Below are positions 34,014 to 39,670 of a DNA stretch of 64,000 nt, piece by piece. The notes beneath the pieces were generated by a model. The model was not told the DNA's origin. It saw only the letters and a list, made by a program, of their open reading frames with translations, and did no database searches. This stretch comes from Candidatus Aramenus sulfurataquae (lineage in GTDB: Archaea; Thermoproteota; Thermoprotei_A; Sulfolobales; Sulfolobaceae): NCBI GenBank assembly GCA_000565255.1, contig ASRH01000004.1:124001-188000 (forward strand), given 5' to 3'. Position 1 is the first letter of the stretch. Every line of letters starts with the position of its first letter. The position numbers and the translations under genes are program-made.

Positions 34014-35069
34014 CTAGAACCACTGGTCCAACCCCGTTTGCCTAGAGAAGCCCTTAGCCTCCCTCATAGCCCTTTTGAGCCTATCCAACCCGTTCCTTAC
34101 TCTCTCCTCGTTGAAGTTGTGCTCGTTCACGAGAATTGCTATTACTTCTTCGTCGTTAGGTGACCCCATTTCCAACGGTTCTGAAGGAGTTATAACTTCT
34201 GGCTTCAGGAAGAGTTCCCTTATCTTTTCTACGTCGAAGGTGATTTCTCTTTTTGGTATCTCTCCAGCCTCTACGGCCTTCTCTATCTTTCCGTACTTCT
34301 TTATGAGTCTGTAGGCGGTCTTAGGGCCTACTCCCTTTATCCCCTCGGGGTCGTAGTCTGTGCCTATTAGGATGGCTATATCGATTAACTGCTCCCTCGT
34401 TATCCCAAGAGTCTTAAGAACTTGGTCTAAATCGATCCTCTCAGGCTTTACCTCAACGTAGACGTCCTTGTTCGGTAGTTTTCTTTTTCCCGTAACCGTC
34501 AAGTTCCTAATCAAGGTCTTTGCGCCAAAGAGGAGAGAATCGTAGTCTTGACTCGCTGAGGCGTAAGTTAATCCCTGAGCGTTTAGATAAGCTGACTCGG
34601 CCTCACCTTCCGATGGAGCTTGAACAATAGGAATTCCCATAGCTTTAAGCAGTTTTTTACCCTCATCCGCCATCTGATTAGTTAGCCTAGTGGACATCTG
34701 CGAGTACTTCCTCATCTCCGTTACTTTTCCTTCCTCCTTTGCCCTCTCCAGTTTCCTCTCGGCTTCCTCCTTAATTTGCCTCCTCCTCTCCAGTTCTTCT
34801 GCCTTTAACTCTGGGGGTTTCCCGTCGAATACGTAAATAGGTATGATTCCTTCCTCAACAAGGTTTATAGTCCGATAAAAGACACCGCTTAGGTGACTCG
34901 TAATCCTTCCCTGGGAGTCCATAAGGGGAGTCCCGTCTGGTTGCCTTATAGCTGTCAAGAACTGGTAAAGGGCGTTGTATGCGTCAACGCTGACCTTCTT
35001 TCCCCTAAGTTCTGACAGCGAGATCTCCTTTTTTACGTCCTCTATTAGATCGGAGAGATCTACGCCTAT
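34014..35069 (-). CDS. fen: Flap endonuclease FEN-1 with apparent ATA start codon
   Basis: The protein is FEN-1: 'IYVFDGKPPELK', 'APSEGEAESAYLN', 'ASQDYDSLLFG' and 'ILIGTDYDPEGIKGVGPKTA' are nuclease-core motifs, and 'RQTGLDQWF' is the C-terminal PCNA-binding peptide. The essential N-terminus ('GVDLSDLIEDV', with Gly2 at the active site) is encoded in frame only if translation starts at ATA 35069-35067. The first ordinary start, TTG for residue 38, would delete a catalytic region (Asp29). GGTGA (35080-35076) lies 6 bases before ATA, and the ATA overlaps the upstream stop (ATAG). With ATA the product is 351 residues, normal for the family. Confidence 0.9.
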   Translation of the reverse strand: MGVDLSDLIEDVKKEISLSELRGKKVSVDAYNALYQFLTAIRQPDGTPLMDSQGRITSHLSGVFYRTINLVEEGIIPIYVFDGKPPELKAEELERRRQIKEEAERKLERAKEEGKVTEMRKYSQMSTRLTNQMADEGKKLLKAMGIPIVQAPSEGEAESAYLNAQGLTYASASQDYDSLLFGAKTLIRNLTVTGKRKLPNKDVYVEVKPERIDLDQVLKTLGITREQLIDIAILIGTDYDPEGIKGVGPKTAYRLIKKYGKIEKAVEAGEIPKREITFDVEKIRELFLKPEVITPSEPLEMGSPNDEEVIAILVNEHNFNEERVRNGLDRLKRAMREAKGFSRQTGLDQWF

Positions 35070-35296
35070 TCCTTTTCACCTATATAAGTTATCATTCTGG
35101 TGTTCTCCCTAATTAACGATACTGATATGTACCCCCTTATCTCTAGGGCCATTAACGCCTTTAAGAAGTCGGAAAACGAAAAATCGTAATTTACTTCCCT
35201 CTTGATCTCGGAGAACAGATCTTCGTCCTTTATAGGTCCCTCAAGTTTTCTGACTCGCTCTAGGACTATGTAGTTAAGGGGAAGCTGTCTCCACAT
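35066..35296 (-). CDS. Small winged-helix-like protein between cdc48 and fen
   Basis: The 76 residues look like a minimal winged helix ('LERVRKLEGPIKDEDLFSEI' ... 'LMALEIRGYISVSLI' ... 'TRMITYIG'), with no known family. Its stop codon overlaps the ATA start of fen, and its last codons contain the GGTGA motif that serves fen. Its start is 7 bases after the Cdc48 stop. Function unknown; the position suggests translation coupling. Confidence 0.65.
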   Translation of the reverse strand: MWRQLPLNYIVLERVRKLEGPIKDEDLFSEIKREVNYDFSFSDFLKALMALEIRGYISVSLIRENTRMITYIGEKE

Positions 35297-38213: not shown

Positions 38214-38573
38214 TTGAAGATGGTTGTAATGGTTAGGAGCGACTTAAAGCTCGGCAAAGGTAAGATAGCCGCCCAAGTAGCTCATGCAGCAGTAACCTTA
38301 GTCTTGGAAATAATTGAAGGAAAGAACGAGAAGTGGAAGGAATGGCTCTTTAGGTGGATAGAGGAAGGGCAACCAAAGATAGTAGTTAAAGTGGACTCAT
38401 TAGATCAGCTCAACGAAAGGTTACAGAAAGCTAGGGCAAAGGGACTACCCACGACTGTTATTATGGACGCTGGAAAAACGCAAGTGGAGCCAGGAACCAT
38501 TACGTGCGGAGGTATAGGCCCTGCAGAGGACTCGCTAATTGACGAGATCACCGGTGACCTGAAATTACTGTAG
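38214..38573 (+). CDS. pth2: Peptidyl-tRNA hydrolase, Pth2 type
   Basis: The 119-residue protein is Pth2: 'RSDLKLGKGKIAAQVAHAAV' (about residues 9-28) and 'DAGKTQVEPGTITCGGIGP' are the catalytic signatures. It releases peptides from prematurely dropped peptidyl-tRNA. The start could be TTG 38214, ATG 38220 or ATG 38229; the first two keep the complete first strand. TTTATAAA at 38196-38203 is the probable TATA box. The GGTGA motif in its last codons serves truD. Confidence 0.9.
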   Translation: MKMVVMVRSDLKLGKGKIAAQVAHAAVTLVLEIIEGKNEKWKEWLFRWIEEGQPKIVVKVDSLDQLNERLQKARAKGLPTTVIMDAGKTQVEPGTITCGGIGPAEDSLIDEITGDLKLL

Positions 38574-39670
38574 ACCCCCTTGACATAGCTGTTGGCATAG
38601 AACGACTTTACCACGATTGGGAAAAAATCGACGTAGAAATTCCACGGCCTGAGGGCTTTAAGGTTGTAGAGAAGATAGGGGAAATTCCAGCCACTGAGTG
38701 GAAGGGTAGAGAACAGGGAAGGTATGCCTTCTTCCTCCTTGAAAAGGTAAATAGAGACCACTTTTCCGTTTTGAACGAGCTGGAGAGAGTGCTCGGTAGC
38801 AAGGTAAGGTATCTGGGAATAAAGGACGCCAACGCTGCGACTTACCAATTGGTCTACGTAAAGGCACCATCAAAGGTCACGGAATATGTAGGGGAGAGAT
38901 TTAAGATAACGTTCAGGGGGTACTACGACGGTAAGGTGCCCCACGGAGGTAATGAGTTCACCATAAGGCTAGTTAGTGATAGGCTGGCTGAAATAGAGGA
39001 AAGAGTCAAGGAAATTACGAAGGACCCCTATGTCCCAAACTTTATAGGCTACCAGAGGTTCGGCACTAGAAGGCCAATAACCCATGTCGTAGGATACTAC
39101 CTTCTAAGGAGGGACTGGTGTAACGCTCTCTTCCATATCCTAGGCAGGCCTTTTTACTCCGAATCTGAGACAATGAGAAAAACCAGGAAATTAGTGGACG
39201 AGGGGCGCCTAGAAGAGGCTTTAAAGGAAATCCCAGGGAAGTTTAAGCAGGAGAAGGTTCTCCTCAAGAATTACTTGAAGAAAGGGGGCTGCTATTATGC
39301 TCTCAAAAGCTCTCTAATTCCCTTGTCCTTTTACGCCGAGGCCTTCCAATCATACCTCTTCAATAAATACCTCTCGAGGAAAATGGACAAGGTAAAACAA
39401 GATAAGGAAGCCTACTTGACCCTCCCTGTTGAACCAAGTAAGTGCGACGACGTATGTAGGGAAATATTAGAGGAAGAAGGAATATCTCTTGCTGAGTTTA
39501 AAGTCCCAGAACTTAAGGTAAATCTGAAGGAACTAGCAAGAAAGGCCTTTGTTAAGGTAAGGAATATTAGGTTCAAGGATGGGACACTTACCTTTGAGAT
39601 AGAGAGGGGTGCATATGCTACGGTGGTTTTAAAGGAGTTACTTAACGCAGATCCTCTAAAAATCACTTGA
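38564..39670 (+). CDS. truD: tRNA pseudouridine synthase TruD with apparent ATT start codon
   Basis: The catalytic aspartate lies in 'LGIKDANAATYQ', and 'FIGYQRFGTRRP' and 'LIPLSFYAEAFQSYLFN' are further TruD motifs. TruD isomerises U13 in tRNAs. The first ordinary start (TTG 38771) would lose 69 residues, including the conserved 'RPEGFKVVEKIGE' strand. The frame is open back to ATT 38564 and closed by a TGA just before. GGTGA (38553-38557) lies 6 bases ahead of ATT, and the ATT overlaps the last codons of pth2. From ATT the protein is 368 residues. Confidence 0.85.
   Translation: MTVDPLDIAVGIERLYHDWEKIDVEIPRPEGFKVVEKIGEIPATEWKGREQGRYAFFLLEKVNRDHFSVLNELERVLGSKVRYLGIKDANAATYQLVYVKAPSKVTEYVGERFKITFRGYYDGKVPHGGNEFTIRLVSDRLAEIEERVKEITKDPYVPNFIGYQRFGTRRPITHVVGYYLLRRDWCNALFHILGRPFYSESETMRKTRKLVDEGRLEEALKEIPGKFKQEKVLLKNYLKKGGCYYALKSSLIPLSFYAEAFQSYLFNKYLSRKMDKVKQDKEAYLTLPVEPSKCDDVCREILEEEGISLAEFKVPELKVNLKELARKAFVKVRNIRFKDGTLTFEIERGAYATVVLKELLNADPLKIT

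Follow-up and report, generated by a model that had tools for sequence, protein, structure and literature searches.

The truD gene of Candidatus Aramenus sulfurataquae raises the question of where its translation begins. Its reading frame runs for tens of codons, which include conserved TruD sequence, before any canonical start codon is met, and it overlaps the gene upstream, pth2. A first-pass annotation of the window (the whole stretch of 64,000 nucleotides that was analysed) had placed the start at an ATT codon inside the end of pth2.

The truD locus and its product

The features of the locus, in window coordinates, are as follows.

38220-38573, plus strand: pth2 (peptidyl-tRNA hydrolase 2; PF01981, NF003314), the overlapping gene upstream of truD
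38553-38557, plus strand: GGTGA, core of the Shine-Dalgarno match, within the pth2 codons GGT GAC; its own TGA shuts the truD frame
38564-38566, plus strand: ATT, the inferred truD start codon, 6 nt past GGTGA and the sole near-cognate before Asp7
38564-39670, plus strand: truD (TruD/Pus7 family, tRNA pseudouridine-13 synthase), 368 codons from ATT
38570-38572, plus strand: GTA, third codon of truD, overlapping the pth2 stop; NTG in some relatives; rejected as a start
38582-38584, plus strand: invariant Asp codon, residue 7 from ATT (30 of 30 aligned TruD sequences), which the start must precede
38771-38773, plus strand: TTG, first canonical start in the truD frame; rejected because 69 conserved codons would be lost and no Shine-Dalgarno match precedes it

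The identity of pth2 is secure (Pfam PF01981, E 1e-40; NCBIfam NF003314 above its cut-off). Its stop codon is TAG at 38571-38573, giving an overlap of 10 nt with truD when counted from ATT. The truD frame is closed by the TGA at 38555-38557, which forms the last bases of GGTGA, and then reads CCT GAA ATT ACT GTA GAC CCC CTT GAC ATA GCT GTT GGC ATA GAA. Its earliest ATG, GTG or TTG is TTG 38771, 69 codons downstream of ATT 38564; the same-genus genome likewise has none ahead of the TruD N-terminus. Between the TGA and the Asp7 codon, only ATT 38564 is one base away from ATG. The first-pass annotation had described just this arrangement, an open stretch of 69 codons free of ATG, GTG and TTG, the TGA immediately upstream and the overlap with the end of pth2, and our analysis reproduces every element of it. 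Over 384 kb of this genome, 441 gene-like frames were compared. Their median stretch without a canonical start is 4 codons; that of truD (71 codons) is the second longest, and the longest belongs to ftsY, whose N-terminus is also conserved.

The truD product belongs to the TruD/Pus7 family by profile, motif and fold; its pseudouridine-13 synthase activity is inferred, there being no enzyme assay. It matches Pfam PF01142 over most of the protein (E 3.1e-60, 204.6 bits against a cut-off of 27), and it scores 154.8 against the NCBIfam equivalog TIGR00094, under the cut-off of 172.2. The first solved-structure match found by Foldseek is the TruD 1z2z (E 3.3e-23, TM 0.77), and the GxKDxxA motif with its catalytic Asp is present, residues G85, K87, D88 and A91 being identical throughout the 30 TruD sequences. 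In a review (PMC6313347, citing Muller 2009), the TruD-type enzyme of S. solfataricus (aPus7) is credited with weak pseudouridine-13 activity.

The 69 codons ahead of TTG 38771 carry the Pfam TruD N-terminus (profile positions 3-73), including the expected first strand, RPEGFKVVEK, in which R28 and E36 are invariant in the 30 sequences. Nearer the start, Asp7 and Gly11 (numbered from ATT) are invariant in all 30. The AlphaFold2 model has a mean pLDDT of 94.6; its first ten residues average 84, and residues 5-9 from ATT are helical. Compared with the same-genus genome, the 69 codons show 10 synonymous and 4 non-synonymous changes. On this comparison, we conclude that they are conserved coding sequence.

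The Shine-Dalgarno match and its spacing

The 3' end of the 16S rRNA of this genome is GGATCACCTCA, complementary to TGAGGTGATCC; because the rRNA ends in GGATCACCTCA, GGTGA is a core Shine-Dalgarno match. As a reference for spacing, we used 45 canonical genes with a clear match from three genomes of the family. The distance from GGTGA to the start codon peaks at 6 nt (20 of 45 genes) and is 5-7 nt in 32 of them. The 6 bases that the first-pass annotation had counted between GGTGA and ATT are correct and equal the mode of this set.

Conservation of the ATT codon

The first-pass annotation had also suggested comparing orthologues at this codon. Start regions of truD were compared at 70 loci of the order, 29 of them from the family of the window (Sulfolobaceae). 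GGTGA-N6-ATT is kept inside pth2 in 21 genomes from nine genera and two families of the order. Eleven genomes have a truD that overlaps pth2 and no canonical start before the Asp; in all 11, three of which come from a different family, ATT lies at exactly the same place. The ten further ATT genomes also have a canonical codon further on, in nine of them an NTG two codons later. ATT is absent from the sampled family genomes in which truD starts elsewhere or is detached from pth2. In other families, a canonical start precedes (I/L)D-x-x-x-G in almost all loci where that anchor could be found. One locus of another family (L052, genome G037) is an exception, as its truD frame lacks a canonical start throughout the 60 codons that precede the LD anchor; in its congener L048, an ATG lies about 10 codons ahead of the anchor.

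Part of the conservation of ATT and GGTGA is explained by pth2 itself, since both lie in its codons: ATT sits in AAA TTR, which encodes Lys-Leu, and GGTGA in GGT GA(Y/A). The choice among synonymous codons in the tail of pth2 tells the two sources of constraint apart. In the 21 ATT genomes, Gly is GGT in 21/21, Lys is AAA in 21/21 and Leu is TTA or TTG in 21/21; no such uniformity is seen in the adjacent codons for Thr, Asp, the middle Leu and the last Leu, which vary freely. Under each genus's own codon usage, the chance of AAA-TTR alone across the nine genera is 10^-5.4, and that of GGT, AAA and TTR jointly is about 10^-11. The product assumes independent genera and for that reason is only a guide. 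AAA-TTR and GGT occur together in none of the remaining 11 (non-ATT) genomes of the window's family. In one genus, a truD that overlaps pth2 goes with the pth2 codons GGT and AAA TTA; where the two genes lie about 145 nt apart, as in three species of that genus, the codons are GGA or GGG and AAA CTT. Of the second family, one genus carries the ATT, and another carries ATG together with AAA CTC. Judged from these patterns of codon choice, the AUU at the start of truD is maintained by selection, across two families.

At three loci of one genus whose truD lies about 145 nt from pth2 (L014, L016 and L017), the frame opens with CTG GTA ACT ACA CC(G/A) CAT; PHPID is conserved and no canonical start precedes the Asp. 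Possibly, truD starts there at CTG or is leaderless.

Other genes with unusual starts

A second gene in the window, fen1, has the same peculiarity. Its features are as follows.

34014-35069, minus strand: fen1 (flap endonuclease 1), 351 codons from ATA; aligns over its full length with the FEN1 proteins of 29 genomes
35067-35069, minus strand: ATA, the inferred fen1 start codon, directly before Gly2; AUH (AUU, AUA or AUC) in 29 of 29 family genomes
35076-35081, minus strand: AGGTGA, the Shine-Dalgarno sequence of fen1, 6 nt before ATA

On the minus strand, the start region reads AGGTGA-N6-ATA-GGC-GTA, and the frame (34014-35075) contains no ATG, GTG or TTG before the conserved N-terminus. FEN1 proteins begin with Met-Gly-Val, and the N-terminal glycine belongs to the active-site region. 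The codon before Gly2 is ATA in 25, ATC in three and ATT in one of the 29 family genomes; in other families, it is ATG, GTG or TTG in 22 of 22 (L212 included). At 346 residues, the deposited S. solfataricus FEN1 chain (2IZO) aligns only from residue 7 of the window FEN1 and lacks the first residues, Gly2 among them, which is consistent with a start placed too late.

Both fen1 and truD have an AUH codon and no canonical start, but fen1, where AUH follows AGGTGA-N6 throughout the family, shows such a start more clearly. All three isoleucine codons occur at the fen1 start because the site is untied to any upstream reading frame, whereas in truD the third base of the start doubles as the middle base of a pth2 leucine codon, which is why it is always AUU.

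About 245 genes conserved between three genera were surveyed for conserved N-terminal sequence ahead of the first canonical start; apart from truD, fen1 was the clearest case. Low-scoring candidates were dropped as antisense frames, low-complexity leaders or unclear. In 22 of 29 family genomes, a further gene, trm56 (tRNA Cm56 methyltransferase; L246 at G000 C4:66981-67550, and L247-L274), lacks a canonical start ahead of its conserved YVLR. Nearly all of the 22 carry ATT, ATA or ATC at a single position downstream of an AGGGAT-type motif; the outgroups start canonically. Of the genes surveyed, no fewer than three (truD, fen1 and trm56) are inferred to start at AUH. Since fen1 and trm56 carry ATA, ATC or ATT at the start position, the constraint is on AUH, with only AUU in truD. 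Given these two genes in addition to truD, we lean towards the view that AUH is probably a regular, if minor, fourth class of start codon throughout the family, dependent on a correctly placed Shine-Dalgarno match and used by few conserved genes. The tolerance of AUH may be a property of aIF1, of the ribosome or of the initiator tRNA. Such a class would have been overlooked because annotation programs admit only AUG, GUG and UUG.

Other start regions are unusual in different ways. In ftsY (L216 at G000 C2:29307-30482, minus strand, and L217-L245), AAGGTG(A/G) and about six nucleotides are followed by TGT TTY GAY, and most family genomes lack a canonical start in this frame, whereas the gene opens with NTG TTY in other families. 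Read in the -1 frame, the codon before TTT is TTG at 20, CTG at nine and ACG at one of the 30 loci. This looks like a start codon with one extra T, and either a +1 slip at codon 2 or a UGU start is possible. The isoleucyl-tRNA synthetase gene ileS (G000 C4:99670-102864) has a conserved N-terminus that extends about 30 codons before the first canonical start, with AGGTGG-N6-TTA at the expected start position. Two genes from another genus (genome G021, L144-L163; frames C440, 151995-152432 plus strand, and C924, 24118-25173 minus strand, in joined coordinates) show AGGTGA-TTTTTT-CTG where the genome of the window has TTG, and GGT ATT CTG GAG where it has ATG; the comparison suggests CUG and AUU starts.

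Alternative explanations for truD

Translation of truD could begin at a later near-cognate codon, ATA 38585 or ATA 38597. ATA is used by fen1, and ATA 38597 aligns with the Met of 'GMERYY', which is ATG in many relatives. Against this, both codons lie past Asp7, the codons upstream of them change mostly synonymously between many related genomes, ATA 38585 is CTA in the same-genus genome, and the distance from GGTGA would be 27 or 39 nt. We consider that such a start has only a slim chance of being correct.

The third codon, GTA 38570, is where the pth2 stop overlaps, and NTG stands there in nine ATT genomes as well as in L025 and L035. A start at this codon is nevertheless very improbable. The codon is GTA in the window, the same-genus genome and another family have TTA, four others have ATA, and GTG, TTG and ATG also occur among relatives; because it varies in this way it is not the constrained position, and it merely reflects which stop codon pth2 uses. 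Neither GTA nor TTA is known as a start codon, and GGTGA would be 12 nt away, a spacing found in one of the 45 canonical genes.

TruD could also be made as a Pth2-TruD fusion, through programmed -1 frameshifting near the pth2 stop. The nucleotide stretch GGTGA..AAATTACT is conserved, and -1 frameshifting is documented for fucA1 of S. solfataricus (PMC8211752). However, the pth2 frame (CTG AAA TTA CTG TAG) contains no X-XXY-YYZ heptamer, and relatives have A or G, in one case C, ahead of AAA, so a -1 slip cannot be general. RNA folding at the pth2/truD junction is no stronger than in shuffled sequences (z -0.27), and in other families of the order TruD is translated from a canonical start of its own. 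We regard the fusion as highly improbable.

The two findings that the first-pass annotation had said would refute an ATT start can practically be set aside. TTG 38771, the first canonical codon and the choice of an automatic annotator, would yield a shortened TruD without RPEGFKVVEK and Pfam positions 3-73, would discard 69 codons that change mostly synonymously, and has no Shine-Dalgarno match of 5 nt within 26 nt upstream; a sequencing or assembly error that removed an ATG is conceivable in a draft of 46 contigs, but the same codons recur in the same-genus genome and 19 more, many of which are closed genomes, and such independent genomes exclude it.

Proposed mechanism of initiation

In the end, we concluded that translation of truD very probably starts at AUU 38564, as the first-pass annotation had proposed. 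The codon is the only near-cognate available, its spacing is the preferred one and it is conserved in 21 genomes; the N-terminal residue is inferred and there is no protein-level proof. Nine of the 21 ATT genomes could start at the NTG two codons later. In three genomes with a detached truD, nothing ahead of the Asp stands out as a start (there is CTG or a late ATG), so experimental proof that Asp7 is required is lacking.

We suggest that ribosomes translating pth2 would terminate at UAG 38571-38573 and that a 30S subunit, either just released or new, would pair its 3' end with GGUGA in the pth2 message. This pairing would put the truD AUU in the P site, where the ordinary CAU initiator tRNA would read it as Met with the third base mismatched, the well-spaced Shine-Dalgarno match compensating for the weak codon. 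The insertion of Met is inferred, as are the coupling to pth2, by which the overlap would tie expression of truD to that of pth2, and a role of the weak AUU in keeping TruD low. For AUH codons generally, the simplest account is ordinary initiation with Met-tRNAi (CAU), tolerated because Shine-Dalgarno pairing would keep the codon in the P site. An unusual initiator tRNA was considered; the anticodon of one tRNA-Met gene, at 2883-2956 of the window, is a normal CAU, a check that did not extend to every Met tRNA. The aIF1 of S. solfataricus is reported to destabilise initiation complexes on a non-AUG mRNA (work cited in PMC6237735). This suggests that AUH starts would be weak and could keep the enzymes scarce.

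Relation to known systems

What is new here is an archaeal, family-wide start of the AUH class under apparent selection; it rests on comparison between genomes, without protein data. We found no archaeal AUU start in the literature searched, and no report of AUU or AUA start codons in Sulfolobus, with most subscription papers outside the scope of the search. The finding offers a testable rule on the start-codon strictness of archaeal ribosomes. It also has a practical side, since with AUH starts in truD, fen1 and trm56 standard annotation would cut these proteins short. In this well-used model group, proteins may be shortened in annotation and in constructs, of which the S. solfataricus FEN1 chain would be an example, and recombinant TruD made from an annotated late start would miss part of the fold.

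Compared with the TruD/Pus7 enzymes 1z2z, 5kkp and 1sb7, with which it shares the Pfam family, the fold and the GxKDxxA motif, the TruD of the window is unusual in its start codon alone. The natural AUU starts of infC and pcnB in Escherichia coli are textbook exceptions; AUU starts are discriminated there by IF3, and infC is autoregulated. They share with truD the AUU and an upstream Shine-Dalgarno match, but they are bacterial (IF3), whereas truD is archaeal (aIF1) and its AUU lies inside an overlapping upstream gene. No link of truD to autoregulation is known, and it encodes no initiation factor. With overlapping genes coupled by termination and reinitiation, truD shares a start just before the upstream stop and a Shine-Dalgarno match inside the upstream gene. 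It differs in having AUU in place of the NUG of an NUGA overlap; in relatives, NUGA lies two codons later.
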